DNA from: Gemmobacter serpentinus
Lineage (GTDB): Bacteria > Pseudomonadota > Alphaproteobacteria > Rhodobacterales > Rhodobacteraceae
Direction: 5' to 3'
DNA length: 61,885 bases
Assembly (NCBI RefSeq): GCF_008973825.1
Contig: NZ_WCHR01000041.1
Span: 1-61,885 of the forward strand
The translations under genes were made by a program, and so were the position numbers. Below the pieces are notes generated by a model. The model ran no database searches and had not been told where the DNA came from. It was given only the letters and a program-made list of their open reading frames with translations. The first letter of the stretch is position 1. Each line of letters starts with the position of its first letter. Positions 422 to 60,009 of the stretch are shown here, piece after piece.

Positions 422-518
422 CGCATTGTCGACCTACAGATCTGCGGGCCAAGGCGCAAGAGGCTGTGCTTTGCCCCCCGATGCTCATCCTGTATCGACC
501 CAGCGGAATCTGCACAGG

Positions 519-9938: not shown

Positions 9939-9940
9939 TC
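9911..9940. repeat. Perfect 15-bp tandem duplication at the rfbA 3' end
   Basis: CCAGAAACCGGGCTC occurs twice back to back (9911-9925 and 9926-9940). The right copy runs into the rfbA stop codon at 9939-9941. It looks like a simple slippage duplication, and no function is evident. Confidence 0.85.
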
Positions 9941-10820: not shown

Positions 10821-10821
10821 C

Positions 10822-15381: not shown

Positions 15382-16317
15382 ATGACGACGAGCACGGTCG
15401 ATACCCAGGGGGTCAGCCAAGCCACACTGACCCATCTGCAGCGGCTGGAGGCCGAGAGCATCCACATCATGCGCGAAGTGGTGGCCAATGCCGAAAACCC
15501 GGTCATGCTCTATTCGGTGGGCAAGGATTCGGCGGTGATGCTGCATCTGGCGAAGAAGGCCTTCTATCCGGCCCCGCCGCCCTTCCCGCTGCTTCATGTC
15601 GACACGACCTGGAAGTTCAAGGCGATGTATGCGCTGCGCGACAAGGCGGCCAAGGATGCGGGCATGGATCTGCTGGTCCATCACAACCCCGAAGCGGTGG
15701 AAAAGGGCATCAACCCCTTCGACCACGGGTCCTTGCATACCGATATGTGGAAGACCGAAGGTCTGAAACAGGCGCTGAGCAAATATGATTTCGACGTGGC
15801 CTTTGGCGGCGCGCGGCGCGACGAGGAAAAATCCCGCGCCAAGGAACGGGTCTTCTCCTTCCGCTCGGCCAATCATCGCTGGGATCCGAAGAACCAGCGG
15901 CCGGAACTCTGGAAGCTTTACAATACCCGCAAGGCCAAGGGCGAAAGCATCCGGGTCTTCCCGATCTCCAACTGGACCGAGCTGGACATCTGGCAATATA
16001 TCCATCTTGAGGGCATCGAGATCGTGCCGCTTTACTTCAGCGAAAAGCGCCCGACGGTGATCCGCAACGGGCTGATGCTGATGGTCGATGATGAACGTTT
16101 CCCGCTGGAAGCCGGCGAGACCCCGGTCATGCGTTCGATCCGCTTCCGGACGCTCGGTTGCTACCCGTTGACCGGCGCGGTGGAGAGCGAGGCCCGCACC
16201 CTGCCGGAAGTCATTCAGGAAATGCTGCTGACCACCACCTCGGAACGGCAGGGCCGCGCCATCGACCATGATCAGTCGGCCTCGATGGAGAAGAAGAAGC
16301 AGGAGGGGTATTTCTGA
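15382..16317 (+). CDS. cysD: Sulfate adenylyltransferase subunit 2 (PP-loop subunit)
   Basis: CysD, together with the GTPase CysN, adenylates sulfate with ATP to form APS. The 311-residue protein carries the PP-loop SVGKDS at residues 45-50, [41 protein letters not shown] and a C-terminal [10 protein letters not shown]; all are standard for CysD. The ATG at 15382 gives the usual N-terminus ([18 protein letters not shown]); the frame is open further upstream but the homology begins here. The stop shares one base with the cysNC start (TGATG). The product may feed cysteine synthesis and also the two sulfotransferases downstream in this window. Confidence 0.97.
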
Positions 16318-18337: not shown

Positions 18338-20176
18338 TTACTCCGGCAGAACGCGGATCGCGCCCTTGTCAGCCGAGGAGGCAAACTGCGCATAGACCTT
18401 CAGCGCGGTGGAGATCTGGCGCTTGCGCGGCTGCGCCGGTTTCCAGCCCTTGGCGTCCTGCTCAATGCGGCGCTGCGCCAGTTCCGCCTCCGGCACCGCC
18501 AGATGGATCGTGCGGTTCGGGATGTCGATCTCGATCACGTCGCCATCCTGCACCAGACCGATCAGACCGCCCGCCGCCGCCTCGGGCGAGGCATGGCCGA
18601 TGGAGAGGCCCGAGGTGCCGCCCGAGAAGCGGCCATCGGTGATCAGCGCGCAGGCTTTGCCCAGACCCTTCGATTTCAGATAGGAGGTCGGATACAGCAT
18701 CTCCTGCATCCCGGGGCCGCCTTTCGGCCCCTCATAGCGGATCACCACCACATTGCCGGCCTCGACCCCACCATTCAGGATGCCGTAAACGGCGGCGTCC
18801 TGGCTTTCGAAGACCTTGGCGGTGCCGGTGAATTTCAGGATCGATTCATCGACGCCCGCAGTTTTCACGATGCAGCCATCGAGGGCAATATTGCCGGTCA
18901 GCACCGCCAGCCCGCCATCCTTGGAGAACGGCGTCTTGGCCGAGCGGATCACGCCCTTTTCGCGGTCGGTATCGAGATCGGGCCAGAGCGAGGACTGGCT
19001 GAAGGCCACCTGCGTCGGCACCCCGCCGGGGGCGGCCAGAAACAGCTGCCGCGCATCGGGGTTGTTCGATTTCGCGATATCCCATTGGTCGATCGCGGCC
19101 CCGATCGAGGGCGCATGGACAGTCGGGCAATTGCGGTCGATCAGACCGGCGCGGTCCAGCTCGCCCAGAATCGCCATGATGCCACCGGCGCGATGGACAT
19201 CCTCCATATGCACATTGGCAGTATTGGGCGCGACTTTGCACAGGCAGGGCACCTTGCGCGACAACCGGTCGATATCCTCCATGGTGAAATCGACGCCGCC
19301 TTCCTGCGCGATGGCCAGCAGGTGCAGCACGGTATTGGTGGAACCGCCCATGGCGATATCCAGCGCCATCGCATTCTCATAGGCCGATTTGCCCGCGATC
19401 ACCCGCGGCAGCACGGTGTCGTCATCCTGCTCATACCAGCGCCGGGCCAAATCGACCACGCGGCGCCCGGCCTCAAGGAACAGGCCCTTGCGGAAGGCGT
19501 GCGTCGCCAGAGTCGAGCCATTGCCCGGCAGCGACAGACCCAGGGCTTCGGACAGGCAGTTCATCGAATTGGCGGTGAACATCCCCGAGCAGGAGCCGCA
19601 GGTCGGGCAGGCGGCCTGTTCGATGGCCGACAGATCCGCATCCGAGATCGCGTCATTGGCCGCCGCCACCATGGCATCGACCAGATCGAGCTTGACCACG
19701 CGGCCGTCGCCCAGCGTGGCCTTGCCCGCCTCCATCGGTCCGCCCGAGACGAAGATCGCGGGGATGTTCAGCCGCATCGCCGCCATCAACATGCCGGGGG
19801 TGATCTTGTCGCAATTGGAGATGCAGACCATCGCATCGGCGCAATGGGCATTCACCATATATTCCACGCTGTCGGCGATCAGCTCGCGCGAGGGCAGCGA
19901 ATACAGCATCCCGTCATGGCCCATGGCGATGCCGTCATCCACCGCGATGGTGTTGAATTCCTTGGCGATGCCGCCCGCCGCCTCGACCTCGCGCGCCACC
20001 ATCTGGCCAAGATCTTTCAGATGGACATGCCCCGGCACGAATTGGGTGAAGCTGTTGACGATGGCGATGATCGGCTTGCCGAAATCGCTGTCTTTCACCC
20101 CGGTCGCACGCCAGAGGCCACGGGCCCCCGCCATATTGCGGCCATGGGTGGTGGTGCGGGAACGATATGCGGGCAT
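18338..20176 (-). CDS. ilvD: Dihydroxy-acid dehydratase
   Basis: IlvD dehydrates 2,3-dihydroxy acids to 2-keto acids in valine, leucine and isoleucine synthesis. The 612-residue protein matches the long IlvD form. Cluster-ligand motifs are [12 protein letters not shown] (Cys118, Cys122) and [17 protein letters not shown] (Cys190, Cys193, Cys196). [11 protein letters not shown] and a C-terminal [15 protein letters not shown] segment are also seen. The start at 20176 gives [10 protein letters not shown], the usual N-terminus. It stands alone as a minus-strand unit converging on cysNC. Branched-chain amino acid synthesis normally has a single ilvD, so its presence beside a plasmid-type origin is informative. 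Confidence 0.97.
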
Positions 20177-20346: not shown

Positions 20347-21711
20347 ATGGCACCCAAATTCGGCACGAGCGGGCTGCGCGGTCTGGTCACGGAACTGACG
20401 CCCGATCTGGTGGCGGATCATATCCGCGCCTTTGTGGCGGCCTGCCCGATGGGCAGCGGGCTTTGGGTCGGGCGCGACCTGCGCGCCTCCTCGCCGGATC
20501 TGGCCGGGGTGGTGATCGGGGCCGCGCAGGGCATGGGTCTTGCCGTCACCGATTGCGGCGCGGTGCCGACGCCCGCATTGGCGCTGGCGGCGATGCAGGC
20601 GGGGGCGGCTGCGGTGATGGTGACCGGCAGCCATATCCCCGCCGATCGCAACGGGCTGAAGTTCTACACACCCACCGGCGAGATCACCAAGGCGCATGAG
20701 GCGGCGATCTTGGCCCATCTCGGCACCGCGCCGCGCGGGTCGGGGCCTGCGCCTGTGCTGGCCGGATCCGTCGGTGCCAACTGGGTTACACGCTATGTCA
20801 CGGGTTTTGGCGCACAGGCGCTGTCCGGCCTGCGTATCGGCATCTGGGCGCATAGCGCGGTGTCGCGCGATCTGCTGGCGGAGGCGATGGCGGCGCTTGG
20901 CGCCGAATGCGTCTCTATCGGCCGGTTAGAGACATTTTTGCCGGTCGATACCGAGGCCGTCAGCGCGACTGCCCGCGCAGATCTGGCCGCCTGGGCGCCG
21001 GGGTTCGATGCGATCATCTCCACCGATGGCGATGGCGACCGCCCGCTTTTGACCGATGGCACAGGCGCGGTGATCCCGGGCGATATTCTGGGCCAGATCA
21101 CGGCGGCCAGCCTCGGGGCCGCAATCGTCGTGACCCCGGTCAGTTCCAATAGCGGCGCGGAAGCGTCAGGGGCTTTCGTGCAGGTGATCCGCACGAAAAT
21201 CGGTTCGCCCTTCGTCATCGCCGCGATGGAGGAAGCAGGGGGCCCTGTGGTCGGCTATGAGGCCAATGGCGGCTTCCTGCTGGGCTTTGATGCCACCGGC
21301 CCGGCAGGCCCCCTGCCCGCGCTGATGACCCGCGACAGCCTGCTGCCGCTGGTCACCGTGCTGGCCGAAGCGCGCAAGGCCGGCGGCCTGCCCGCGCTGT
21401 TGGCCGCCCAGCCCCCGCGTTTCACCGCGACCGACCGGCTGGAGGAAACCCCACCCGAGGTCACCGCCCCCTTCCTGGCCCAGATGATCGACAATCCCGA
21501 CACGATGCTTTCTGCGCTGTCAGAGACGGAAATCACCCGCGACCTGACAGATGGGCTGCGCATCAGCCTCGCCTCTGGCCGGGTGCTGCATCTGCGCCCC
21601 TCCGGCAATGCGCCGGAGTTCCGGCTCTATACCGAGGCCGAAAGCCCGGAGGCCGCCACAGCCCTGCTCGCGCAGCTGCGCAGCTTTGTCGCGCAGGCGC
21701 TGCGCGCATGA
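20347..21711 (+). CDS. manB: Phosphomannomutase / phosphoglucomutase family enzyme
   Basis: The enzyme interconverts hexose 6- and 1-phosphates; in this context, mannose 1-phosphate for GDP-mannose is most likely. The 454-residue alpha-D-phosphohexomutase carries TSGLRG at residues 7-12, the phosphoserine loop TGSHIP at 93-98, the metal loop DGDGDRP at 227-233, the sugar-binding GYEANGG, and the phosphate-binding RPSGNAPEFR near the C-terminus. All four catalytic motifs are intact. A GGGAGAG ribosome-binding site precedes the ATG at 20347, and the stop overlaps the next glycosyltransferase start as ATGA. manC lies about 11 kb further on in the same window. Phosphoglucomutase activity cannot be excluded. 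Confidence 0.9.
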   Translation: MAPKFGTSGLRGLVTELTPDLVADHIRAFVAACPMGSGLWVGRDLRASSPDLAGVVIGAAQGMGLAVTDCGAVPTPALALAAMQAGAAAVMVTGSHIPADRNGLKFYTPTGEITKAHEAAILAHLGTAPRGSGPAPVLAGSVGANWVTRYVTGFGAQALSGLRIGIWAHSAVSRDLLAEAMAALGAECVSIGRLETFLPVDTEAVSATARADLAAWAPGFDAIISTDGDGDRPLLTDGTGAVIPGDILGQITAASLGAAIVVTPVSSNSGAEASGAFVQVIRTKIGSPFVIAAMEEAGGPVVGYEANGGFLLGFDATGPAGPLPALMTRDSLLPLVTVLAEARKAGGLPALLAAQPPRFTATDRLEETPPEVTAPFLAQMIDNPDTMLSALSETEITRDLTDGLRISLASGRVLHLRPSGNAPEFRLYTEAESPEAATALLAQLRSFVAQALRA

Positions 21712-25335: not shown

Positions 25336-25821
25336 CCTCTTCCCGGTTTCAGGCGCAAGCGGGATCCTTATCAAGACAGGGGTTCCGCAGACCCAGGGCA
25401 CCCCCCGATCAGGGAGCGTGGAGACACGGCACGCCGCCCTGATGTCCAGCACATCCTGGAAAGTGACCAAACCGCTGCGGGCGGCGAAACGCATCTTCAC
25501 GCGGCGCTGATCGCCGGAGACCTTGAAGAACATGCCCCCTGTTTCACGGGCGCAAAGCAGGACAGGATCGGGGCTTTGATCAGCCCTGAGAGCATATCTT
25601 TCCCCCGAAGGCGCAGGCGGGCCGCCAGGGGCCCCTATGCCCATGTCATGGACATGCCCAAAGCCACAGCGGCTTGACGCAAAACGACCAATCCCGCATA
25701 GGGGGCAGAGCCGCCTCAGGCCCGCCCCTTGAACGGTGGGAGCCGGGTTCGCCCTGCGAGGCTTCGACAGGGGCTGGCCGATATCGATGCGGCCGGACGA
25801 GACAAGGAAGATACGCAAGGC
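25336..25821. other. Intergenic region before the second sulfotransferase
   Basis: About 486 bp. Short frames run through it on both strands, but none has a recognisable domain, a ribosome-binding site or conserved-looking composition. I treat it as non-coding upstream sequence, possibly a decayed gene. Confidence 0.4.
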
Positions 25822-26505
25822 ATGCCTCTCTATCGCCACGCAGACCGGATGCTTCTGCTCATCCATATCCCGAAGACCGGTGGCTCTACGGTGGAAGAGG
25901 TCCTGCATCGGCGCGGGGCGCAGCAGGCGCTGAAAAGCAGGCCGCGCAAGGAATTTTCCGTCGTCACCCCGCAGCATATGCATTGGGACCTGCTGCTCAC
26001 ATGGGTGCCGCCCAGCTTTTACGACCAGAGCGTCAGCATCGTGCGCAACCCCTATGCGCGCCTGGCCAGCGAATATCGCTGGCGCAGCGATCTGCACAAG
26101 GCAAATCTCAAAAAGGCCCGTGCCGCGGCAGATCAGCCTGTGGAGGCCGAGGCCCCGCCCGCCGAAATGCCGGATTTCGACACCTGGCTGCGGCACCAGT
26201 TCAAGGCCTATCCGAAACGGCCGATGATCCTGGACAACCATATCCGGCCGCAGGTCGACTTCATCGGCCCCGATACGCAGATCTTCCGGCTTGAGGATGG
26301 GCTGGATGCGGCAATCAACCATTGCCTCACACAGCTGAACATGCCGCTGCGCAATCTGAAGGTCCATCAGTCGCGCAAATCCGCGTCTCAGCCGATCGCG
26401 ACCACCGCAGCGCGGATGGCGCAAATCGCGGAATTCTACAAAGCCGATTTCGAGGCCTTCGGCTATTCGGTTGACGAGATCCCCGCCGATCTGTTCACGC
26501 TGTAA
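25822..26505 (+). CDS. Sulfotransferase family 2-like protein
   Basis: A 227-residue protein with the short family-2 sulfotransferase layout: LIHIPKTGGSTVEEVL (5'-phosphosulfate loop) near residues 13-28 and SIVRNPYARLASEYRW near residue 72 (3'-phosphate binding). Such enzymes move sulfate from PAPS to carbohydrates; some family members act on other substrates. I chose ATG 25822; an in-frame TTG at 25729 would add 31 residues without family similarity. AAGG lies close to the start. It is the second PAPS-type protein in this block and is followed after 38 bp by a GT2 gene, so the two may be co-transcribed. Confidence 0.8.
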   Translation: MPLYRHADRMLLLIHIPKTGGSTVEEVLHRRGAQQALKSRPRKEFSVVTPQHMHWDLLLTWVPPSFYDQSVSIVRNPYARLASEYRWRSDLHKANLKKARAAADQPVEAEAPPAEMPDFDTWLRHQFKAYPKRPMILDNHIRPQVDFIGPDTQIFRLEDGLDAAINHCLTQLNMPLRNLKVHQSRKSASQPIATTAARMAQIAEFYKADFEAFGYSVDEIPADLFTL

Positions 26506-38721: not shown

Positions 38722-38730
38722 GATCGGTAC

Positions 38731-40229: not shown

Positions 40230-40889
40230 TCACGTCGCCCCCATCAGATCCTGATGCAGCTTGATCGCGTCTTCCAGATCTTCGAAGTAATGCAGCTGGC
40301 CGCGTTCCAGCACGAGACCCGCATCGCAGAACTCGCGCACCGTGCGGGTATCATGGCTGACCATGATGGCGCTGGAGGATTTCATCCGCTCGGAGAACAC
40401 CGCCCGGCTCTTGCGGCGGAAACTGGCATCCCCCACCGCCGTCACCTCATCGACCAGATAGGTATCAAAGCGGATGCCCATGGCCGCCCCGAAGGTCAGA
40501 CGCGAACGCATCCCCGAGGAATAGCTGCGCACCGGCATGTGGAAATGCTCGCCCAGCTCCGAGAAATCGCGCACAAACTCGATCAGCTGGCTGGTCTCCA
40601 CGCCGTAGACCCGCGCGATGAAGCGGATGTTCTGCGCCCCGGTCAGATCACGATGGACCGCGCCGCCCAGGCCCACCGGCCAGCTGATCGTGCCTTCCGA
40701 GACGATCCGGCCGCTGCTCGGGCGCATGGTGCCCGCGACCATCTGCAAGAGCGTGGACTTGCCCGCCCCGTTGCGCCCCAAAAGCGCCAGCGAGCGGCCT
40801 TCGGGCAGGGTCAGGCTCAGATCGTCAATGACCACCTTGCGCCGCCCGCCAAGCGCAAAGCTCTTGCTCAGATGCTCGAACCGGATCAT
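40230..40889 (-). CDS. kpsT: Capsular polysaccharide ABC transporter ATP-binding protein (KpsT-like)
   Basis: A 219-residue ATPase driving polysaccharide export. It has Walker A GRNGAGKST at residues 38-46, ISWPVGLGGAVHRDLTGAQN typical of KpsT, signature SYSSGMRSRLTFG, and Walker B YLVDEVTAVGD with SHD following. Family length is about 220, so it is full-length. It lacks the C-terminal polymer-binding domain of Wzt-type O-antigen ATPases, which supports a capsule-type exporter. It follows kpsE by 23 bp on the minus strand; kpsM, its membrane partner, lies divergently 1.4 kb away. Confidence 0.92.
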   Translation of the reverse strand: MIRFEHLSKSFALGGRRKVVIDDLSLTLPEGRSLALLGRNGAGKSTLLQMVAGTMRPSSGRIVSEGTISWPVGLGGAVHRDLTGAQNIRFIARVYGVETSQLIEFVRDFSELGEHFHMPVRSYSSGMRSRLTFGAAMGIRFDTYLVDEVTAVGDASFRRKSRAVFSERMKSSSAIMVSHDTRTVREFCDAGLVLERGQLHYFEDLEDAIKLHQDLMGAT

Positions 40890-40912
40890 GCGCGTGCTGC
40901 CCCCAACCTGCC

Positions 40913-42163
40913 CTAGCGACGGTCACGGATGCTGTAGAAGACCAGCGTGCCGATCGCCCAGATCAGCAGCAGGAAGATCGAGACCAGCCCGGTCAGCACC
41001 AGGCGCTGCGGAAACTCCGCCGTCTGCGGCAAGGTCGGGCGGATATAGGGTGCCAGATACAGCGACTGGCGCGAGGCATTGGCGCGGGCCAGATCGACCG
41101 CCGCAAGCGCCGTGCGATAGCTTTCTTCGGCGAATTGCAGATCGACGGTCAGGCGTTCGAATTCGGCGATCAGATCGGGGTAATTCTCATCCACGCCCCC
41201 CGCGCCTTCGGCACTGGCGAAGGTCTGGCGCTCGGCTGCGATCCGGTCCCGGATCACCTGGATACGGCGCGCGGCCTGATTGCGGCGCGGATCGTTTTCC
41301 TGGGTCGAACCCAGAATAAGGTCATTTTCGATCAGGGCCTCGGCCAGCTGCTGCTGCAGGTTGTTCAGCACGCCCATCCGGCCCTGGATATCCGCCGCCG
41401 GATCGACGATGCGGGTGCGGGTGCGGAACAGGCTGAGCGCCTCACGCGCATCCTTCAGCCGGGCCAGTGCCTGATCGAGATCGGCATTGGCATAGCGCAT
41501 CACGTCTTCGCGGGCCTGGTTGTTCAGGTCGTTGATCATGCGCTGGCTTTCGGCCACGATCTCGCCGGCGATGCGCTGCGCATCCTCGGGGGTGAAGGCC
41601 AGCACGCGCAGCGCGATCAGGCGGGTGCTTTGATCGTAGGAGATGCGGACCATGCGGCCCCAGTAATCATGCAACTCCTCGATGCGGGCATCGGGCCAGA
41701 GCGTGAAAACCGGATCGCCCGGCCAATGCGTGGAATAGATCGCCCCCAGCCCCACGCGCTCGTCAATGGCCGAGACGATCTCCTGGCTCTGGATGAACTC
41801 ATAAAGGATATCGGATTCCGACATGCCGCCGCCGCCGGCAAGCTGGGCCAGACCGCCCACAAGCCCGGTGGAGGCATTGTCCTCGCGCCGCACGGTGAAG
41901 GCCACGGTCGAGGCATACTGATCCTGTGCCACGCCCCAGAGATAGGTCGCGGTGACAAGGATCGGCAGCAGGACCAGGATCGCAAAAGACCAGACCACGC
42001 CCATATGGCGTCGGCGGAAGCGCGCCGGTTCGGCCATCGGCAGGACCTGGATCACCGGCGGCGGGCCGCTTTTGCCACGTTTGGAGGCGGGTTTGCGCGG
42101 AGCCGGGGCCGCGGGCGCATCGCTTGCAGCCGGGGGAACTACAATATTATCTTTTTCTGTCAA
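40913..42163 (-). CDS. kpsE: Capsule polysaccharide export inner-membrane protein (KpsE-like, PCP)
   Basis: A polysaccharide co-polymerase-type protein linking the ABC exporter to the outer-membrane channel. An N-terminal Pro/Lys-rich cytoplasmic stretch is followed by a transmembrane helix at about residues 54-77 (VVWSFAILVLLPILVTATYL), a long periplasmic coiled-coil domain, and a C-terminal helix at about 388-412 (LVSIFLLLIWAIGTLVFYSI). DLDQALARLKDAREALSLFR is in the coiled-coil part. No ATG lies near the true N-terminus, so I chose TTG 42163 (TEKDNIVVPP), with GGGG upstream. The frame runs on upstream to 42313, but that part would overlap the divergent kpsM. Confidence 0.9.
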   Translation of the reverse strand: MTEKDNIVVPPAASDAPAAPAPRKPASKRGKSGPPPVIQVLPMAEPARFRRRHMGVVWSFAILVLLPILVTATYLWGVAQDQYASTVAFTVRREDNASTGLVGGLAQLAGGGGMSESDILYEFIQSQEIVSAIDERVGLGAIYSTHWPGDPVFTLWPDARIEELHDYWGRMVRISYDQSTRLIALRVLAFTPEDAQRIAGEIVAESQRMINDLNNQAREDVMRYANADLDQALARLKDAREALSLFRTRTRIVDPAADIQGRMGVLNNLQQQLAEALIENDLILGSTQENDPRRNQAARRIQVIRDRIAAERQTFASAEGAGGVDENYPDLIAEFERLTVDLQFAEESYRTALAAVDLARANASRQSLYLAPYIRPTLPQTAEFPQRLVLTGLVSIFLLLIWAIGTLVFYSIRDRR

Positions 42164-42250
42164 AGACTTGCCCCGAGGATCGACCGCGTTTGAACTTCTT
42201 GCGACTGTTCTACATAATACCCCCTTGAAACGCCAGTGCGCGATAGAGCG

Positions 42251-43114
42251 ATGCAGACCCAGAGCATACCCCCCCTTCCCGATCTGCCCGCAGCAGGCCC
42301 GATGCCCGCGCAACGGCCCAAGCCTGCGCTGCGCCGGGTGAAAACGCGGGAATTTCCGACCTTCCGCACCATCATGGCGCTGATGCTGCGCGAGATGTCC
42401 TCGCGCTATGGGCGCTCGCCCGGGGGCTATGTCTGGGCCGTGCTGGAGCCGGTGGGCACCATCCTGATTCTGGCCATCGCCTTTTCCTTCATGCTGCGCG
42501 CGCCGCCTTTGGGAACCAGCTTCATCCTGTTCTATGCGACGGGCTTTCTGCCCTTCTCGCTTTACAGCACCGTCGCCAAGACCGCGATGAACGCGATCGA
42601 CTATTCCCGCCCGCTGCTGATGTATCCGGCGGTCACCTGGGTCGATGCCATGGCTGCGCGGTTCCTGCTGAATGCGCTGACCGGGATCTCGGTGGCGACC
42701 ATCGTCTTCACCGGCATCGCCTTCCTGCCCAATGTGCGGCTGTCACTGGATCTGCCGCCGATCCTGATGGCGCATCTGATGGCGCTGGTCTTCGCGCTTG
42801 GCCTGGGGGCGCTGAACTGTGCGATCAGCGGCCTTTTCCCGATCTGGGACATGGTCTGGAATATCCTGACCCGGCCGCTGATGCTGTTGTCGGGGGTGCT
42901 TTATACCTTTGAATCGCTGCCCGCCTTTGCCCGTGCGATCCTGTGGTATAATCCGCTGATCCATGTCGTGGGCGAGATGCGCGCGGGCTTCTATCCGATG
43001 TATAATTCCAGCTATGTCAGCCCGGCCTATGTGCTGTTGCTGGGCCTGGGCCTGATGGCCTTTGGCTGCACGCTGCTGGTGCGTTACCACCGCGACATCC
43101 TGAATGATGCCTGA
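42251..43114 (+). CDS. kpsM: Capsular polysaccharide ABC transporter permease (KpsM-like)
   Basis: A 287-residue ABC-2 type permease. After a Pro-rich N-terminus comes REMSSRYGRSPGGYVWAVLE, the amphipathic segment typical of KpsM/Wzm. Six hydrophobic segments follow (for example PVGTILILAIAFSFML, LMALVFALGLGALNCAISGL, AYVLLLGLGLMAFGCTLLVR). WYNPLIHVVGEMRAGFYP near residue 243 is also characteristic. I chose ATG 42251; a GTG at 42236 in the same frame is the alternative. It diverges from kpsE-kpsT, with only about 87 bp for both promoters, and ends before a hairpin shared with galE. Confidence 0.92.
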   Translation: MQTQSIPPLPDLPAAGPMPAQRPKPALRRVKTREFPTFRTIMALMLREMSSRYGRSPGGYVWAVLEPVGTILILAIAFSFMLRAPPLGTSFILFYATGFLPFSLYSTVAKTAMNAIDYSRPLLMYPAVTWVDAMAARFLLNALTGISVATIVFTGIAFLPNVRLSLDLPPILMAHLMALVFALGLGALNCAISGLFPIWDMVWNILTRPLMLLSGVLYTFESLPAFARAILWYNPLIHVVGEMRAGFYPMYNSSYVSPAYVLLLGLGLMAFGCTLLVRYHRDILNDA

Positions 43115-43161: not shown

Positions 43162-44154
43162 TTACTTGCTGTAACCCGGCCCTTGCGTCCAGGCCCAGGC
43201 GTCACGGATCATCTGGGGCAAGGTGGAATGTCTGGGCTGCCAGCCCAGCTCCTCCACCGCGCGGGCCGAGCCCGAGACCAGCGCCGTCGCATCGCCGGCC
43301 CGCCGCGCGCCCTCGATGATCGGGACCTCGCGATTGGTCACCGCGCGGCTTGCGTCAATCACCTCGCGCACCGAGAAGCCCGATCCGGTGCCCAGATTGA
43401 ACACCCGGTTGCCCTTGCCCTCCAGCAACCAGTTCAGCCCCAGAACATGGGCCTGCACCAGATCCATCACATGGACATAATCGCGCACACAGGTGCCGTC
43501 ACGCGTGGCATAATCCGAGCCAAACACCGTCAGCGCCGGGCGCTTGCCTGCCACCGCCTCCAGCATCAGGGGGATCAGATGGGTCTCGGGCGTGTGCTGT
43601 TCGCCGATCTCGCCATCGGGATCGCAACCCGCCACGTTGAAATAGCGGAAGATCACATGGTTCAATCCATGGCTCGCGCCGAAATTGGCCAGCATATCCT
43701 CGATGGCGCGTTTGCTGGCCCCATAGGAATTGATCGGCAGCTGCACCGAGTTTTCATCCAGCAGCACCCCGTCCTGATCGCCATAGGTCGCGCAGGTCGA
43801 GGAGAAGACAAAGTTCTTGCAGCCCGCCGCCAGCGCGCCTTCGATCAGGTTCAGCGCGCCCATGACATTGACCCGCCAGTATTTGCCCGGGTCGGTCATG
43901 CTTTCGCCGACAAGGCTGAGGGCCGCGAAATGCAGCACCGCGGCCGGCTTGTATTGCGCGAAGGCCGCGTCCACATCGGCGCGGTTCATCAGATCGCCCT
44001 TGAAGAAGGGGCCGAACTTCACCGCTTCTTCCCAGCCGGTATTGAGATTGTCGAAGGCGACCGGGGTAAAACCTGCCTGTGCCAGCACCTTGCAGGCATG
44101 GGCCCCGATATAGCCCGCGCCCCCGGTCACCAGAACCGTCTTGCCATCCGTCAT
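43162..44154 (-). CDS. galE: UDP-glucose 4-epimerase
   Basis: GalE interconverts UDP-glucose and UDP-galactose. The 330-residue protein has TVLVTGGAGYIGAHACKVL, SSTCATYGDQDG with the catalytic Ser/Thr, INSYGASKRAIEDML with Tyr and Lys, and RYFNVAGCDPDGEIGEQH typical of GalE. DYVHVMDLVQAHVLGL and FNLGTGSGFSVREV follow. Length and motifs are intact. It provides UDP-galactose (or UDP-GalNAc in some relatives) for the nearby polysaccharide enzymes and sits between the kps genes and the partition genes. Confidence 0.95.
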   Translation of the reverse strand: MTDGKTVLVTGGAGYIGAHACKVLAQAGFTPVAFDNLNTGWEEAVKFGPFFKGDLMNRADVDAAFAQYKPAAVLHFAALSLVGESMTDPGKYWRVNVMGALNLIEGALAAGCKNFVFSSTCATYGDQDGVLLDENSVQLPINSYGASKRAIEDMLANFGASHGLNHVIFRYFNVAGCDPDGEIGEQHTPETHLIPLMLEAVAGKRPALTVFGSDYATRDGTCVRDYVHVMDLVQAHVLGLNWLLEGKGNRVFNLGTGSGFSVREVIDASRAVTNREVPIIEGARRAGDATALVSGSARAVEELGWQPRHSTLPQMIRDAWAWTQGPGYSK

Positions 44155-44249: not shown

Positions 44250-45254
44250 TCAGCCCTGCGCTTTCAGCCAGTCGATCAGCCTTGCGGCCAATCCGTCATC
44301 CAGACGCGGCCCTTCCAGGATCAGCCGCCCCGAGGGATGGCGGATCACCTTGAGGCCGGAAATCGGCTCTAGCGGCGGTATAGTGCCGGTTTCTGACGAT
44401 CTGCGCGGGGACAGCACCTGCTGGATGCGGGCCTGCTCGTCGCTGGCATCCGCCGGGCGGTCCTGCAAGGCCGGGATCAGCCGGGACACCAGATCCGGAT
44501 CGGCCTCCAGGCCTTGCGCGAGTTGCAGCCCCAGCCGCTCGCCGATGGATTCGGGGAAATGCAGCACACCATCCAGCGCCCGCACCACCGTGAGGAACGA
44601 CCCGATCTTGGAGCGTTTGGCCCGGCTGGCCGAAGCAAAAAGCGCGCGAAGGGCGGCCCGGTCATCGGGATAGACCCCGGCCTCGACCGCCTTGGCGGCG
44701 ATGCGCGCGCGCTCATAGAACGAAAGACCCACGCGGATCTCGTTTTCCTCGACCATGGCGATATAGGCGTCTGACGCCTGATCGGGTTTGCGCAAAAGCG
44801 CCAGCACAGTGCCGAAAGCCGCATCTTCCTGCGCCAGTTGCCGCAGCGCGGTCAGCCGCCGCCAGCCGGAAATCAGCCCGTAGCGATCGGGGCCGGTCAG
44901 GGCGACCTCGATCGGGGTCTGCTGGCCACGGGCGCGCAAGGATTCGACCAGGGCGGTCATCTCTTCGGGGTCGGTGGCGATGCGGTCGCGCACCAGATAG
45001 CCCGCCTCGATCTGTTCCAACGGCAAAGCCAGCACCAGCCGCCCGCTTTCGCGGGCCTGACGCAGACTTGCCGCCATCTCCTCCATCGCGGCGGTCGCGG
45101 CCGCAGCCCCGGCCATATCGGCGATGGGCGGGCGCGCCAGCGGGGCCGGGGCCACAGGTGCCATGGGGGCTAGAGAGGAGACGGCGGAGGCCTCGATCAT
45201 ATCCTCGGGCTCGGCCATGGTCCCAAAGGGGGTCAGACGTCTGCGCTTGGCCAT
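44250..45254 (-). CDS. parB: ParB family partition protein
   Basis: A 334-residue ParB/Spo0J-type protein that would bind centromere sites and spread along DNA. An Ala/Pro-rich N-terminal stretch of about 70 residues is followed by the ParB/Srx-like domain (LPLEQIEAGYLVRDRI, GQQTPIEVA, YGLISGWRRLTALRQL). A helix-turn-helix region comes after MVEENEIRVGLSFYERA. The motif GWRRLTA replaces the more common G-E-R-R form, and the protein resembles plasmid RepB/ParB variants more than chromosomal ParB. It lies 84 bp downstream of parA; a 16-bp palindrome in that gap is a candidate binding site. Confidence 0.9.
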   Translation of the reverse strand: MAKRRRLTPFGTMAEPEDMIEASAVSSLAPMAPVAPAPLARPPIADMAGAAAATAAMEEMAASLRQARESGRLVLALPLEQIEAGYLVRDRIATDPEEMTALVESLRARGQQTPIEVALTGPDRYGLISGWRRLTALRQLAQEDAAFGTVLALLRKPDQASDAYIAMVEENEIRVGLSFYERARIAAKAVEAGVYPDDRAALRALFASASRAKRSKIGSFLTVVRALDGVLHFPESIGERLGLQLAQGLEADPDLVSRLIPALQDRPADASDEQARIQQVLSPRRSSETGTIPPLEPISGLKVIRHPSGRLILEGPRLDDGLAARLIDWLKAQG

Positions 45255-45316
45255 GTCAGATCCCCTTTCCGAAATCAGTCTCTACCCGGGCAGACAGAGA
45301 CGTATTCGCCCTGCCC

Positions 45317-45332
45317 GTTTCGCGCGCGAAAC
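45317..45332. promoter_or_regulatory. Candidate parS site (palindrome) between parA and parB
   Basis: GTTTCGCGCGCGAAAC is a perfect 16-bp palindrome, 6 bp after the parA stop. The same 16 bases occur again at 49352-49367, and I noticed no other copy in the window. The GTT...AAC half-sites and length resemble centromere sites of alphaproteobacterial ParB proteins. Confidence 0.6.
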
Positions 45333-45338
45333 AATCGT

Positions 45339-46733
45339 TCATTGCGCCGCCTCCGCCACCCGATCCAGCTCATCGCGGCGCCAGCTGCCAAGGATCAGCG
45401 CCTTCACGGCGGCCCATGTCTCGTCGAATGTCTCGCGGCCCCGGGCATAGGTCTCGCGGTTGAAATCGCGGTAATCGGCCTCATAGATGCCGCGCACCTG
45501 CTCGCCCGCCTGTCCGATCAGCGCGGTGAAATCCTGCCGATGCGGCGAGAGCGTCTGGCCCAGCCAGCCCTGCATCAGCGCCGCAAGCTCGGCCTGCTGG
45601 CTGCTGTCGAACCGGGTGATGAGAGTGCGCACCGCATCCCACTCAAAGTTCAACTCGGGCCGACCGAGTGCCCGCGCCGCCATATTCTCCCCCTCCTCGA
45701 TGGAGCGGAAGGTGGAATGCAGCATGTCGAAGAAGCGCCCGGTGGAATCGAACTCCAGAAACGAGGCCCCCATCGGCACCAGCAGAATATCGGCAGCGGC
45801 CAGCCCGTTGATCGTCAGATAGCCAAGCGCGGGCGGGGTATCGAGGAAGATCACATCATATTGGTCGAGCAAGCCATCGGCGGCCAGGCTTTCGGTCAGT
45901 GCATCCCATAGCTTCCAGCCGCGCGATTGCATCCGCCAGACCGGGATCTGGAACTCGGCCCAGTAAAGGTTCAGCTGCGCGCCGATCAGATCGATATTGG
46001 GCCAATGGGTCTTCTGAACCAGATCCTGCGCCTTGACCGTCAGCGCCTCGGTCAGTGTCTCATCGAGCGGGATCGGCGCATCGCCCCGGTCCAGCCGGCG
46101 CTGGTTGTCGATACGCAGATGGCTGGCGTAATGCCGTGCGAGCAGCGGGAAGACCGTCTGCCACTCATCCTCGACCCTTCCCCCGAAGATCGAGGTCATC
46201 GAGCCCTGACTGTCCAGATCGATCACCAGCACGCGGTAGCCATCCAGCGCCGCCGACATCGCCAGATGCGCACAGGTCGAGGTCTTGCCGACCCCGCCCT
46301 TGAAGTTGGCGACCGCCAGCATCTTGGCCGGCAGATCCTTGGGGCGGTAGGGCGTATAGGGTTTGGCCTTGGAGCCCTCGACTGCAAAGAAGGCGCGCAG
46401 GCGCAGCACCTCGTCCAAGGTGAACCATTTGGCGCCGCCCTCGGTCTCCGACAGGCCTTGTGGCAGATCGGGGTTCTGCTTCAGCACGCGCCGGAAATGG
46501 GCCTGCGCCACCGGGATCAGATAGCGCGTGATCTCCCAAGTGGAGAACAGCCGCAGCTTGCGCCCGCCGCTGGCATCAAGACCGCGCCCTGCCAGATCAT
46601 TGCGTCCGGTCTCGCAGGCGCGCGCAATCCGGCCAAAGCCTTCGGTCGTGGTGGGGGTGCCAAGCGCGGTCAGCGCCGCATCGGGATCAATGCCGAAATA
46701 GGGCGGAAGGGGGGCTGCTGCCTCGGGCTTCAT
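45339..46733 (-). CDS. parA: ParA family partition ATPase
   Basis: A 464-residue Walker-type ATPase that segregates the replicon. Residues about 60-115 look like a DNA-binding region (STWEITRYLIPVAQAHFRRV, KWFTLDEVLRLRAFF), so it may repress its own promoter. The deviant Walker A KGGVGKTST is at residues 145-153, VLVIDLDSQGSMTS follows, and VIFLDTPPALGYLTING is the A' region. Length is typical of large plasmid-type ParA with an N-terminal regulatory domain (type Ia). It is transcribed with parB and diverges from rep; the origin lies between. Confidence 0.93.
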   Translation of the reverse strand: MKPEAAAPLPPYFGIDPDAALTALGTPTTTEGFGRIARACETGRNDLAGRGLDASGGRKLRLFSTWEITRYLIPVAQAHFRRVLKQNPDLPQGLSETEGGAKWFTLDEVLRLRAFFAVEGSKAKPYTPYRPKDLPAKMLAVANFKGGVGKTSTCAHLAMSAALDGYRVLVIDLDSQGSMTSIFGGRVEDEWQTVFPLLARHYASHLRIDNQRRLDRGDAPIPLDETLTEALTVKAQDLVQKTHWPNIDLIGAQLNLYWAEFQIPVWRMQSRGWKLWDALTESLAADGLLDQYDVIFLDTPPALGYLTINGLAAADILLVPMGASFLEFDSTGRFFDMLHSTFRSIEEGENMAARALGRPELNFEWDAVRTLITRFDSSQQAELAALMQGWLGQTLSPHRQDFTALIGQAGEQVRGIYEADYRDFNRETYARGRETFDETWAAVKALILGSWRRDELDRVAEAAQ

Positions 46734-47010
46734 TTCTGCCTCATGTGCCGTGTTTTCTGCAGTATACCGAAAAACGCATCACATGGAAGCAAAGACATGA
46801 CATGACAGGATTTTCTCTGCTGATTCTATGACTTGCGGGCTTTGGGCAGGGTGTGCCGTGTGCCTTTTCGGGGCTATCGCCGGGTGCGGTGAAGACCCAT
46901 GTGCGATTTTTTCCTGTTATAGCGATGTTATCTTATATGTTACGGGTCAGCATAGGTTTTTGCAAATAGCTGATCTTGAAAGAAAAAAATTGATCTGAGG
47001 CGCATCGGGT

Positions 47011-47076
47011 GACTCTGATCCGACACTTCTCCGACTCTGATCCGCCGAAAGGGCGACTCTGATCCCCCAATCGCGA
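47011..47076 (+). repeat. Three 22-bp iterons
   Basis: GACTCTGATCC starts at 47011, 47033 and 47055, a spacing of exactly 22 bp (two helical turns). Flanks of each copy are less conserved. These are likely binding sites for the Rep initiator encoded just downstream. Confidence 0.85.
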
Positions 47077-47090
47077 TACTGGACGGCGCA

Positions 47091-47099
47091 TGTGGATAA
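47091..47099 (-). promoter_or_regulatory. DnaA box
   Basis: TGTGGATAA on the plus strand is the exact complement of the consensus TTATCCACA. Its position between the iterons and rep supports an origin function and host DnaA dependence. Confidence 0.8.
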
Positions 47100-47159
47100 C
47101 TTTAGGGTGAGTGTCACTGAAACCCCGAACCGAAATCGGGGACAAATCACGAGGCGCAG

Positions 47160-48224
47160 ATGGCAGGGCAGGCAGTTGCGGGGGCATTCCCTGCGCGACG
47201 ACGATCCAATTTTGGGCCCGGTTCTGGGGCGGATATTCCGGCACCGGTCATTGGCGATCTGTTCATCTGCGATGTGCTGGAGGCCAGTCCGAAGGACGAT
47301 CTCGGCACGATGGAACACCCGATCTTTTCGCTGTCCACCAAGCCCGATCGCCGGATCCTGAGCTATGAGCATAATGGCGCCAAGGTCGAGGTTGTCCCTT
47401 CGGTGAAGGGGCGCGCGACGATCCATGACAAGGATATCCTGATCTATTGCATCAGCCAGTTGATGGCGGGCCTGAATGCCGGGCGCGAGGTCAGCCGGAC
47501 GCTGCAACTGAAGGCGCATGACTTGCTGCTCGCGACGCAGCGCGATACCGGCGGTGACAGCTATCTGCGGCTGCGCGAGGCCTTTGAGCGGCTGGCGGGC
47601 ACCCGTATCACCACCAATATCGTGACCGGCGGCATCGAGGCCACCAGCGGTTTCGGCCTGATCGAAAGCTGGGAGATCCTGCGCAAGACCCGCGGCGGGC
47701 GGATGATCTCGGTCATGGTGACCCTGTCGGAATGGGTGTTCCGTGCGGTGCTGGCACGCTCGGTCCTGACGCTGAGCCGGGATTATTTCGGGTTGCGCAA
47801 ACCGCTGGAGCGGCGGGTCTATGAGCTGGCGCGCAAGCATTGCGGCCGCCAGCCGGACTGGCGCATCTCTGTCCCGGTCCTGCACAAGAAGGCGGGGTCT
47901 TCCGCGCCGGTGCGGGTGTTTCGCGCCGCGATCCGCAAGATGATCGAAGAGGCGCAGCTGCCCGATTACCGGATGGAGGAAGAGCCGGGCGATGTGATCC
48001 GCTTTGCCCGGATCGGCGTCATCGAGGAAGAGACAGCACCCGACGCGGGCCTGCCTTCGCATTTCGACCCCGATGTGCTGGAGGCCGCGCGCGCCCTTGC
48101 CCCGGGGATGGATGTCTATGCATTGGAGGCCGAATGGCGGGCCTTCTGGGTATCCTCCGGCCGCCCGCGCCTCAGCGCCCCGGATCGTGCTTTCCTGGGC
48201 TGGGTGAAGGCGCGCAAGGGCTAA
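47160..48224 (+). CDS. rep: Replication initiator protein A (RPA family)
   Basis: A 354-residue plasmid replication initiator. MEHPIFSLSTKPDRRILSYE, KGRATIHDKDILIYCISQLM, YFGLRKPLERRVYELARKHC and the following Trp-containing segment are typical of RPA-type initiators in Rhodobacteraceae. A GAGG lies 5 bases before the ATG at 47160. It would bind the iterons upstream to open the origin. It is divergent from parA-parB and shares the intergenic origin. There is no repC and the gene order is not repABC, so this is the solitary-replicase type. Confidence 0.9.
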   Translation: MAGQAVAGAFPARRRSNFGPGSGADIPAPVIGDLFICDVLEASPKDDLGTMEHPIFSLSTKPDRRILSYEHNGAKVEVVPSVKGRATIHDKDILIYCISQLMAGLNAGREVSRTLQLKAHDLLLATQRDTGGDSYLRLREAFERLAGTRITTNIVTGGIEATSGFGLIESWEILRKTRGGRMISVMVTLSEWVFRAVLARSVLTLSRDYFGLRKPLERRVYELARKHCGRQPDWRISVPVLHKKAGSSAPVRVFRAAIRKMIEEAQLPDYRMEEEPGDVIRFARIGVIEEETAPDAGLPSHFDPDVLEAARALAPGMDVYALEAEWRAFWVSSGRPRLSAPDRAFLGWVKARKG

Positions 48225-56894: not shown

Positions 56895-56950
56895 GCTTGT
56901 TTCCAGCCCCCAGTTGTGATCCCTGTCGCCGGGACAATCTAGGATCGCCC

Positions 56951-58654
56951 ATGAAGGTTTCTTCTGTAATCCAGAAAGCGCGCGGCAGCTATGTGCGGAT
57001 CTGGTTCCACAGCATCTTTATCACTTTGCTCGCGCTGATCCCCTTCATCTACATGATGCAGGTCACCCAGCGTGTCTATACCAGCCATAGCTGGGAAACC
57101 CTGGGCTTCATCACCTTGCTGGTGGGGTTCCTGCTGGTGGTCTGGGGGATACTGGAACATTACCGCTCCAGCGCGCTGTTTGCGCTTGGTCACCGGATCG
57201 ACCACGAATTGCGCGAAGGCGTGTTTGATGCGGTCCATCGCGGCGACAAGCCCGCGGCCTTCCGGGCCTATGGCGATATCGCGACACTCCGCCAGGGTCT
57301 GACCGGATCGCTGGCCGAGGCCTTGATGGATGCGACATTGTCGCCGATCTTCATCGTGGTGCTGTTCATCCTGCACCCGGTCTTTGGCCTGGTGGCGCTG
57401 GCCTATATTGCGGTTCTGGCGATCCTGAGCGCGCGGGCCCGGTCGATCTGGAAGGTGGTGCGGGCCGAGCAGCGCGAGCCCGAGGATCAGGCCTTTGCCT
57501 TTGGCATGGCGACGGCGGCCCGGCGCGAGACGGTGCGGGCGATGAATATCCTGCCCGGTGTGCGCCGCGAATGGGCAGGGCTGGAAGACAAGGCCTCGGG
57601 CATCGCGCTGGAGGGGCATGACCGGGCGGGTGCCCTCGACAGTGCGATCGCGGTGCTGCAACACGCCCAGATCGTCATCCTCGTCGGAACGGGTGCCGTG
57701 CTCTATCTGATGGAAGAAGTCTCGGCGAGTGCGGGCATGGCCGCCTTCATCGTGATGATGCGGGGCGTCGGGCCGGTGATCTCGGTGGCGCGCAACTGGT
57801 CCACCATCCATGAATTGCGCAGCGCGGCCGAGCGTCTGGATGTGGTTCTGGCCGATGTGCCGGCCGAGGCCACGACGCCCTTGCCCGATATGCAGGGCCA
57901 TATCGCCTGCGACAATCTCACGCTGCTGGGCAGTGACGGCAAGCCCGTGCTGACCGGCATCCGTTTCGAGGTGCCGCCGGGATCGGTGGTGGGGATCGTG
58001 GGGCCAAGCGGCGCGGGCAAATCCACGCTGCTGCGGCTGCTGGCGGGGGCAGGGCGGCCCTCTTCGGGCAGCGTGAAGATCGACGGTTTCCCGATCGATC
58101 TCTGGCCCGCCGCGCAGCGCGGCCCCGAGATCGGCTATTTGCCGCAGGCGGTGGATCTGCTGCCCGGCACGGTCTGGCAGAATGTCGCGCGCTTTGCCCC
58201 CTATGATCCGTCGCTGACCGGCCCGGTGACCGAGGCGCTGCGCATGGCGGGGGCGCTGGATATCGTGCAGGCGCGCGGGCGGGGCCTGGATTTCCGCATG
58301 ATGGATGGCGGCGCGCCGCTGTCGGGCGGGCAGCGCCAGCGCATCGGCCTGGCGCGGGCCTTTTTCCGCCAGCCGAAACTCGTGGTGCTGGACGAGCCCA
58401 ATTCGGCATTGGATGCCGAGGGGGAAAAGAACCTCGCCTATAGTCTGGCCGAGCTGAAACGCGCCGGATCGACCGTGTTCTTCAGCACCCACAAGGCCGG
58501 ACTGCTGGGGGTCTGCGACTATATTCTGGTCATCATGAACGGCTATATGCATTCCTTCAGCACCCGCGATGACATGCTGGGGCGGCTGAATGCGGCGGGC
58601 AATACGCTGCTCTCCGCCGGTGCGCCGCCATCTGCCCCGGAGGGCCAGGCATGA
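56951..58654 (+). CDS. prtD: Type I secretion system ABC transporter (PrtD-like)
   Basis: A 567-residue ABC transporter exporting RTX-type proteins. Residues 1-295 hold the membrane domain with hydrophobic segments at about 20-36, 52-68, 130-160 and 238-253. The ATPase follows: Walker A GPSGAGKST at 351-359, GYLPQAVDLLPGTVWQN, signature LSGGQRQRIGLARAFF starting at 457, and Walker B VVLDEPNSALD at 478-488. It lacks the N-terminal C39-like peptidase domain of other type I exporters, which matches PrtD-type export of RTX proteins. ATG 56951 fits this family better than the frame start at 56897. It overlaps the HlyD-like gene by ATGA. Confidence 0.92.
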   Translation: MKVSSVIQKARGSYVRIWFHSIFITLLALIPFIYMMQVTQRVYTSHSWETLGFITLLVGFLLVVWGILEHYRSSALFALGHRIDHELREGVFDAVHRGDKPAAFRAYGDIATLRQGLTGSLAEALMDATLSPIFIVVLFILHPVFGLVALAYIAVLAILSARARSIWKVVRAEQREPEDQAFAFGMATAARRETVRAMNILPGVRREWAGLEDKASGIALEGHDRAGALDSAIAVLQHAQIVILVGTGAVLYLMEEVSASAGMAAFIVMMRGVGPVISVARNWSTIHELRSAAERLDVVLADVPAEATTPLPDMQGHIACDNLTLLGSDGKPVLTGIRFEVPPGSVVGIVGPSGAGKSTLLRLLAGAGRPSSGSVKIDGFPIDLWPAAQRGPEIGYLPQAVDLLPGTVWQNVARFAPYDPSLTGPVTEALRMAGALDIVQARGRGLDFRMMDGGAPLSGGQRQRIGLARAFFRQPKLVVLDEPNSALDAEGEKNLAYSLAELKRAGSTVFFSTHKAGLLGVCDYILVIMNGYMHSFSTRDDMLGRLNAAGNTLLSAGAPPSAPEGQA

Positions 58655-60009
58655 CCCCGTTGCTGCCCGCACCTGATGCGGCATCCGCCGCCGATCCGGT
58701 CTCGCCCGCATTGGTCACCTGTGACCGCACCCTGCGCCATGCGCTGCGCGCCTCGTCGCTGACCATCCTGATCACTTTCGGTCTGGTCGGCGGCTGGCTG
58801 GCTGTCGCCCGGCTCGACAGTGCGGTCGTGGCCTCGGGGGTGGTGGAAAACGCCAATACCACCCGCCAGATCCAGCATCTGGAAGGCGGCATCGTGCGCG
58901 AGTTTTTCGTGCGCAACGGGGATCGGGTGAAGGCGGGCGATCTGCTCTTGCGGCTGGACCCGACGCAAAACGCGGCCACCGCCGATCTGTTTGCCGCGCA
59001 GATCCTGGGCAACCGCGCCCGGCAGGAACGGATGGAGGCCGAGATTGCGGCAGCCCCCGAACTGGTCTTCTCTGATCTGCTGAAGGCCCAGGCTCAGGCC
59101 GATCCGGTGCTGGCCCGCGCCATGGACAGCGAGGCGCGTCATTTCGATCTGCAGCGCAAGGAGTTGTTGCAGGCGCGCGATCTGTTGCAGACCAATATCG
59201 CCCAGTCCGAGGCCGAGATCCACGCCAATGAGGTGCGCCGCAGCATCGCCGTGCGCGAGGCCGAATTCGTGCGCAAGGATCTGGAGGCACAGCGCCAGCT
59301 GCGCGACAAGCAGCTGACCAGTCAGGCCCGGGTCAGCGAGCTGGAACAGGCGAGCCTTGCGCTTGAGGAAAAGGTCGCGCAATCGGATATCGATATCGCG
59401 CGCATCCGGCAGGCCATTCTGGGATTCCGGTTGCAGATCGCCCAGATCGAGCAGGAATATCGCCGCCGCGCCGCCGAACAGCTGGAAGAGGTCACCCGCG
59501 AGATCCGCGCGCTGGAGCGCGATGCGATCATCGCCAATGACTCGCTCAGCCGGGTGGAGATCCGCGCGCCCGTCGATGGCACGGTGCAGGAAAGCGTCCT
59601 TGGCACCATCGGCGCGGTGATCCGGGGCGGCGAGACCATCCTGAAGATCGCGCCCAGCGAGGATGAATATATCATCGCGGCCCGGGTCTCGCCCAATGAT
59701 ATTGACGGGATCATGCCGGGGTCCGAGGCGCTGATCACCTTCCCGGCCTTCCAGGCGCTGGATCTGTCACCGGCAGAGGGGGAGTTGCTGACGCTGTCGC
59801 GCGACCGTATCGTGGACCCCTATACGCGGGTCGATTATTACGAGGCGCGGATCCGCCTGGACGAGACCACCTTGCCCAAGGCGCAGGTGGAGCGGCTGGT
59901 GGCGGGGATGTCGGCCTCGGCGGTGCTGCCCACCGGCAAACGCACGGCGCTGAATTATCTGCTGGGGCCGTTGATGCAACGCCTGCAAAGCGCGATGCGG
60001 GAGGAGTGA
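58651..60009 (+). CDS. hlyD: Type I secretion membrane fusion protein (HlyD-like)
   Basis: A 452-residue periplasmic adaptor. A short cytoplasmic N-terminus is followed by a transmembrane helix at about residues 35-53 (SSLTILITFGLVGGWLAVA). The lipoyl/biotinyl half-motif ASGVVENANTTRQIQHLEGG is next. A long alpha-hairpin covers about 130-300 (ELEQASLALEEKVAQSDIDI, RRRAAEQLEEVTREIRALE), then RVEIRAPVDGTVQES and a C-terminal beta-domain ending near LNYLLGPLMQRLQSAMREE. It links the PrtD-like ABC transporter to a TolC-type outer-membrane channel, which is not encoded in this window. ATGA overlap with prtD. Confidence 0.92.
   Translation: MTPLLPAPDAASAADPVSPALVTCDRTLRHALRASSLTILITFGLVGGWLAVARLDSAVVASGVVENANTTRQIQHLEGGIVREFFVRNGDRVKAGDLLLRLDPTQNAATADLFAAQILGNRARQERMEAEIAAAPELVFSDLLKAQAQADPVLARAMDSEARHFDLQRKELLQARDLLQTNIAQSEAEIHANEVRRSIAVREAEFVRKDLEAQRQLRDKQLTSQARVSELEQASLALEEKVAQSDIDIARIRQAILGFRLQIAQIEQEYRRRAAEQLEEVTREIRALERDAIIANDSLSRVEIRAPVDGTVQESVLGTIGAVIRGGETILKIAPSEDEYIIAARVSPNDIDGIMPGSEALITFPAFQALDLSPAEGELLTLSRDRIVDPYTRVDYYEARIRLDETTLPKAQVERLVAGMSASAVLPTGKRTALNYLLGPLMQRLQSAMREE

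Follow-up and report, generated by a model that had tools for sequence, protein, structure and literature searches.

As Harrison and colleagues are said to have defined it in 2010, a chromid is a separate replicon that combines a plasmid-type replication and maintenance system with core genes that are chromosomal in other species. Biofilm plasmids of the Rhodobacterales are mostly seen as adaptation modules. The criteria for chromids include a parAB operon, a copy number <2, a GC content within 2.5% of the chromosome, and chromosome-like codon usage and tetranucleotides (PMC9025767). In culture, Phaeobacter inhibens can do without its 65-kb replicon: a laboratory strain is in use that lacks this "biofilm chromid" (PMC9025767). 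Literature searches, limited to open-licence papers, found no paper describing a RepA-I chromid in Gemmobacter. The window analyzed here is the whole contig C38 of the Gemmobacter serpentinus draft genome, 61,885 bp long, which carries a RepA-I-type repA, parAB, ilvD, cysD and cysNC. We read it, at a probability of about 0.74, as a sizeable portion of a RepA-I replicon that lies outside the chromosome and serves as a small secondary chromid of the biofilm type.

A first-pass annotation had proposed a chromid from the same stretch, counting purF and tRNA-Ser(UGA) among the genes that would make it indispensable. That proposal keeps its footing on an intact replication module, on ilvD and cysNC, each the sole copy found, on a chromosome-like composition and on a separate replicon in Gemmobacter fulvus; purF drops out of it, and the replicon of the tRNA gene is uncertain. 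Neither purF nor, yet, the tRNA lends support, which comes instead from ilvD and cysD/cysNC; from the comparison with G. fulvus; from orthologous repA/parAB on p5, a complete separate circle in that species; and from a composition and codon usage that are like those of the large contigs and unlike those of four other contigs with RPA-type initiators.

The draft comprises 63 contigs and 4,262,748 bp (99.99% complete, 0.58% contamination), and its nearest relatives within the collection searched are Gemmobacter species. The genus set consists of the draft itself (G000) and 10 other genomes (G001-G010; G003 is G. fulvus), of which G004 is 87% and G007 82% complete and G001 is rated 100%; other genera of the family are represented by 26 genomes (G011-G036). 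In addition, 80 repA loci were fetched with flanks of at most 10 kb per side, and the conservation of iterons and DnaA box was checked in 13 of them and in G. fulvus. Nine pieces of large contigs from the draft, 176 kb in all (~4% of the genome) and taken as chromosomal, serve as the composition reference.

The replication and partition module

The iteron origin with a DnaA box, the RPA initiator and parAB named in the first-pass annotation are all there, and the module is intact. The repA gene (47160..48224, + strand) encodes an RPA-family initiator matching PF10134, "Replication initiator protein A", with E=1.7e-94. Its typing as RepA-I follows its best matches, RPA initiators of biofilm-type plasmids, one of which is annotated "RepA-I" (H34). 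On the opposite strand lie parA (45339..46733; PF13614, with AAA_31/CbiA Pfam matches) and parB (44250..45254), whose match to PF02195 (ParB_N) is weak (E=1.4e-4, 22.3 bits, under the Pfam cut-off of 26.3) and which occupies the same position as in an annotated relative. All three are intact reading frames. RepA is 78.6% identical to that of G. fulvus p5 and, among the matches listed, 65-73% identical to those of the remaining plasmids; parA is 91-94% identical in seven relatives.

Upstream of repA lie three iterons, GACTCTGATCC, on the + strand (47011..47065, starting at 47011, 47033 and 47055), with a 22-bp spacing. These three copies compare with 0.04 expected, and three copies arose in 0/100 shuffles. 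The sole DnaA box within the window, TTATCCACA, is found at 47091..47099 on the - strand and is weak taken alone, at least one box appearing in 9/100 shuffles. Both the iteron triplet and the box precede repA in 7/7 of the closest loci (L006-L012), and in G. fulvus two iterons fit the pattern and the DnaA box is also present. Six more distant loci (L013-L016, L021, L026) contain the iteron pattern 0-2 times, and three of them have the box. What the window holds is therefore a plasmid-type replication and maintenance system made up of repA, parAB, iterons and DnaA box, with a parAB partitioning operon in which parB is recognized by its weak Pfam match and its position.

The cumulative GC skew of the window has its minimum at 46,299, within parA and 0.7 kb from the iterons, and its V shape was reached in 0/5000 block shuffles. 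In 45 genes chosen by hand, the + strand skew at four-fold sites, evaluated by counts only, is 0.000 in + genes and -0.036 in - genes of the left arm, and 0.082 and 0.044, respectively, in those of the right arm. The shift of ~0.08 occurs in both gene orientations and is therefore not produced by gene orientation alone. Because the V is centered near the iterons, the origin of C38 appears to have been in use over a long time. RepA would bind the iterons and, with DnaA, start low-copy replication, and ParAB would segregate the replicon.

Four further RPA-type initiator matches are found in the draft, on contigs C54, C27, C33 and C13, so that the genome may hold up to five such replicons or relics.

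Amino acid synthesis and sulfate activation

The window encodes a dihydroxy-acid dehydratase (DHAD) of the 612-aa type, IlvD (18338..20176, - strand), which scores above the NCBIfam cut-offs of the equivalogs NF009103 and TIGR00110. Next to it on the + strand are cysD (15382..16317; NF009214), for the small subunit of sulfate adenylyltransferase, and cysNC (16317..18233; NF004035), for its large subunit fused to adenylylsulfate (APS) kinase, both also above their NCBIfam cut-offs. These three genes were among those that the earlier annotation had listed as normally single, and the search for second copies that it proposed bears this out for ilvD: it is the only DHAD found in the assembly, the remaining matches (32-34% identical) belonging to a single gene that is present in two pieces, the larger of which scores best with edd (NCBIfam). 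CysNC is likewise the only sulfate-activating enzyme found, in a search that covered cysNC and not cysD by itself; other matches are short and at most 34% identical. The draft has no ATP sulfurylase of the Sat type (PF01747), and one of the 11 genus genomes, that of G. fulvus, does have it, in a search whose control was positive in 5/14 genomes.

G. fulvus, with a genome of seven contigs, has the reverse arrangement. Its DHAD, of the PRK00911 type, and a bifunctional Sat-CysC are both located on the 3.38-Mb contig and are different, non-orthologous enzymes. A search of the complete p5 sequence, made in four stretches, detected no ilvD, cysD, cysNC or purF. Core genes that are chromosomal elsewhere are thus found on C38 by function, through the non-orthologous enzymes of G. 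fulvus. Within the genus, a RepA-I repA (81-88%) occurs in 7/10 other genomes (G002, G003, G005, G006, G008, G009, G010) and a 612-type ilvD (90-91%) in the same set minus G. fulvus (6/10). In three relatives (G005, G009, G010) both genes share one contig, and in 5/6 the contig with ilvD also carries cysNC, the exception being the 5.8-kb contig of G002 (cysNC was sought on these contigs, not genome-wide). G001, G004 and G007 have neither a RepA-I repA nor a 612-type ilvD nor Sat. Among the matches listed for the other family genera, 19/26 have another DHAD type (first piece 36-41% identical), a type confirmed by NCBIfam for the G. fulvus gene alone; six have a 612-type at 74-77%, and G018 a C-terminal piece only.

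These distributions suggest that the replicon-borne ilvD replaced a chromosomal one. The 612-type ilvD and CysD/CysNC would have assumed the roles of a 577-type ilvD and of Sat-CysC on the chromosome, which would later have disappeared. Because ilvD and cysNC are the sole copies found in the assembly, the replicon would be needed for growth on minimal medium and would not be dispensable on media without isoleucine, valine, leucine and reduced sulfur. A biofilm plasmid would here be locked in, two central metabolic steps having been taken over by non-orthologous enzymes, while a congener, G. fulvus, keeps both steps on the chromosome. With replicon-borne steps in one species and chromosomal ones in the other, Gemmobacter may offer a natural series of states (chromosomal, transferred, replicon absent) in which to test the change from plasmid to chromid. 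As IlvD is as close to that of Paracoccus aminovorans as to those of congeners, the gene may have moved horizontally. A conserved ilvD-cysDNC cassette, common to C38 and large plasmids of Paracoccus and Rhodobacter, was considered and rejected, the ilvD neighbors in the three records inspected being without cysDNC.

Composition

With a GC content of 0.637, the window lies within 2.5% of the nine large-contig pieces, whose mean is 0.634. The tetranucleotide correlation is 0.954-0.969 for the window, 0.962-0.988 for the nine reference pieces, and 0.934-0.979 for five further pieces of the same genome; the four other RPA contigs fall lower, at 0.739-0.841. Relative synonymous codon usage (RSCU) correlates at 0.985 for the window and at 0.948-0.992 for the 5/9 reference pieces tested. 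The other RPA contigs, with C27 and C33 pooled, reach 0.852-0.900. Codon usage and tetranucleotides are thus chromosome-like as judged by correlation, where clustering was used in PMC9025767.

Contig ends, tRNA-Ser(UGA) and purF

Several observations weigh against a separate and indispensable replicon. An exact terminal overlap of 15-500 bp was sought at the ends of C38 and none was found, which rules out circular closure by that route, and both ends are repeats common to other contig ends of the draft assembly. With such ends, the strain's own replicon may or may not be a separate circle. In G002, G006 and G008, ilvD and repA are on different draft contigs. G001, in spite of its 100% rating, gives no match to RepA-I repA, 612-type or 577-type ilvD, or Sat. 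IlvD is 92% identical to that of P. aminovorans and 90-91% to those of congeners, and the co-divergence of repA, parA, ilvD, cysNC and galE with tmk, dacA and holB, assessed on only five taxa (10 pairs), gives correlations from -0.47 to 0.85. The tRNA gene adds two points: it sits in an island of ~390 bp bounded by insertion sequences (IS), and its match in 6/10 genus-mates (86-98%) is each time off the repA contig. As to G001, which has one RPA match at 43%, it could be a cured or auxotrophic strain, or its plasmids may have been lost from the assembly.

The repeat at the left edge (1..98) matches the end of C44 and is probably the end of an IS3-family element. Its bases 1-96 are 100% identical to that end (G000:C44:361175-361270, minus strand; C44 is 361,270 bp long), further copies occur near contig starts in G008, and one copy in a relative (L210) stands at the end of an open reading frame (ORF) that, by eye, resembles a transposase of the IS3 type. 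At the other edge, the final 99 bp of the window recur at the end of C58 with 99% identity. On the inner side of the island is an internally deleted IS3-type transposase remnant (490..1098, - strand; PF00665 in 744-956, 29.1 bits, cut-off 32.6): positions 490-939 and 929-1005 match relatives several hundred bases apart, so that the middle of the transposase is missing here.

Between these two elements lies tRNA-Ser(UGA) (332..421, - strand), present as the first-pass annotation had it and the sole copy found in the assembly (one match, 110 bases); its use as proof of a chromid is set aside, given its IS-bounded position at the contig edge, which leaves it uncertain to which replicon the gene belongs. 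The six matching genus-mates carry it on G005:C34, G006:C25, G010:C12, G001:C2, G009:C21 (27 kb) and G008:C225, four of which exceed 400 kb, and the anticodon is UGA in 5/5 of the matches fetched. Among the candidates scored, the remaining four genus genomes give weaker matches only (71-79%). One flank of the gene is common to G005, G006, G009 and G010 and consists of dacA, tmk and holB (named by eye from translations); the G001 locus is without it. In the draft, the dacA-tmk-holB locus (C52:127623-131479) is without tRNA-Ser(UGA), and an IS3-type remnant, judged by eye, is in its place. The adjoining stretch, G000:C52:131479-134229, where the tRNA usually sits, contains this remnant, a tRNA-Asn recognized by eye and small, possibly phage-like ORFs.

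A gene that is missing from its usual flank on C52 and present at the edge of C38 would also be expected if the RepA-I replicon were integrated in the main chromosome by IS elements near tRNA-Ser(UGA), and some relatives of RepA are indeed encoded on long contigs (L014, 2.09 Mb; G025:C1, 0.66 Mb). Integration is nevertheless unlikely. BLAST detected no similarity between the IS remnants of C38 and C52, so that a simple IS recombination between the two contigs is rejected, and the GC-skew V at a plasmid origin, the intact conserved iterons and the separate p5 suggest long autonomous replication. The tRNA gene on C38 may have been relocated or captured, or it may mark an integration junction.

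The purF gene of the window (1147..2664, - strand; TIGR01134, above the NCBIfam cut-off), which adjoins the IS3-type remnant, had been listed as a normally single housekeeping gene. It is not: the proposed search for second copies found a full-length purF at G000:C31:65112, 42% identical to the window copy and above the purF cut-off too. The window copy is of a gammaproteobacterial type: its identity is 79.6% with the copy on a Serratia plasmid, 77% with Escherichia coli records and 76-80% with enterobacterial purF in the plasmid records listed, and its GC content at third codon positions (GC3) is 0.80. Given this enterobacterial likeness and GC3, it is taken for an acquired extra copy and rejected as a sign of indispensability.

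A redundant purF and a tRNA gene confined between IS sequences at a contig edge are what an ordinary accessory biofilm plasmid would show if its housekeeping genes were redundant or its left end an assembly artefact, and the related RepA-I plasmids of Phaeobacter, 65-70 kb in size, include the one that P. inhibens can be without (PMC9025767). This explanation is very unlikely in view of ilvD and cysD/cysNC, which lie in the interior (15-20 kb) and not at the contig edge; ilvD and cysNC, moreover, each occur once in a draft with a completeness rating of 99.99%, and both are found again on contigs of relatives. The secondary chromid thus remains the preferred reading of C38.

rRNA operons on related replicons

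The p5 replicon of G. fulvus carries a complete 16S-Ile-Ala-23S-5S-fMet operon (L189:17121-21505 and L190:1-907). The chromosome of this species has two further full 5S-fMet matches, and nine rRNA genes are reported for G. fulvus con5 (PMC8709402). In draft relatives, one edge of the repA contig resembles the 16S leader of p5 (E 1e-53 to 6e-6; G005, G006, G008, G009 and G010), the repA contig of G002 ends in sequence lying just past this leader on p5 (E 7e-37), and a tRNA-fMet is found at one edge of G005:C8, G010:C7 and G008:C155; G009 gives no 5S-fMet match at all. The RepA-I replicon therefore probably carries an rRNA operon in six draft relatives, to judge from these edges. Taken alone, the same edges would also fit a chromosomal stretch between two rRNA operons, which is a point in favor of an integrated replicon. 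The window itself contains no rRNA, and its ends show no match to the 16S leader. The replicon of C38 may continue past the contig.

A wider claim would be that a replicon of probably <150 kb is the second chromosome of the species, with its only tRNA-Ser(UGA), required for reading UCA, its only DHAD, its only sulfate-activation route and an rRNA operon as in the relatives. It is a tentative proposal and somewhat unlikely to hold in full. If true, translation and two biosynthetic routes would depend on a former biofilm plasmid.

Biofilm-type cargo

The remaining cargo combines dTDP-rhamnose synthesis with polysaccharide export, as in biofilm replicons. An rmlC-rmlB-rmlD-rmlA operon (9939..13279, - strand; Pfam) is also found on p5 and on the repA contigs of G005, G006, G008, G009 and G010. 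A polysaccharide ABC exporter (40230..43114; PF00005, PF01061), composed of an ATPase, a protein without Pfam match (40913-42313) and an ABC2 permease, recurs as a trio on the repA contigs of relatives, and galE (43162..44154, - strand) scores above the NCBIfam cut-off of TIGR01179. On the + strand are a phosphomannomutase/phosphoglucomutase (20347..21711; PF02878 and related domains), a sulfotransferase (25729..26505; PF03567) and a type I secretion ABC transporter with its HlyD adaptor (56897..60009; PF00005, PF00664, PF13437). Further Pfam matches comprise many glycosyltransferases, ManC, UDP-glucose/GDP-mannose dehydrogenase, a pyruvyltransferase and RTX proteins. A low-GC patch at 35000-40500 (0.556-0.564), which encodes a large glycosyltransferase and another protein that matches no Pfam family, was perhaps recently acquired.

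The sulfotransferase could use 3'-phosphoadenylylsulfate (PAPS) to modify a polysaccharide. Its presence on one contig with the PAPS-making genes (15382-18233) suggests a sulfated exopolysaccharide, for which CysNC-made PAPS may be an additional use.

Comparison with known systems

The circular p5 of G. fulvus con5 (NZ_CP076366, 141,504 bp) resembles C38 in its orthologous repA, parAB, rmlCBDA, ABC export genes and galE, and differs by its complete rRNA operon and by lacking ilvD, cysD, cysNC and purF, the DHAD and sulfate activation of that species being chromosomal and non-orthologous. The RepA-I biofilm plasmids and chromids of Phaeobacter and relatives (65-70 kb) share an RPA initiator that is 65-70% identical, and the 68.5-kb plasmid of P. 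inhibens, the one record inspected, also has the gene order parB-parA-repA. Among the 80 fetched repA loci, rmlA-D is near repA in 33-34, whereas ilvD is near it in one and cysNC in one. A distant roseobacter, Alloyangia pacifica, has cysD/cysN ~6 kb from repA on its RepA-I-like plasmid plas4 (L280).

rRNA operons on Rhodobacterales plasmids are already known, with many among the records listed, and Paracoccus aminophilus pAMI1 carries one (PMC3925955). Plasmids of this kind (PMC10645730) find their counterpart in p5 and probably in five to six draft relatives, and differ from the window, which has none. The "secondary chromid" pAMI6 of P. aminophilus (206,583 bp; PMC3925955) is similar in carrying metabolic genes, and is required on minimal medium, as the replicon of C38 would be. 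The record of 206,583 bp includes cysN; the key gene proposed for it is a different one, amtB (PMC3925955). Finally, the RepABC-8 chromids of Sulfitobacter are ameliorated low-copy replicons common to related species, as the replicon of C38 would be, and rely on a different replication system (PMC9025767).

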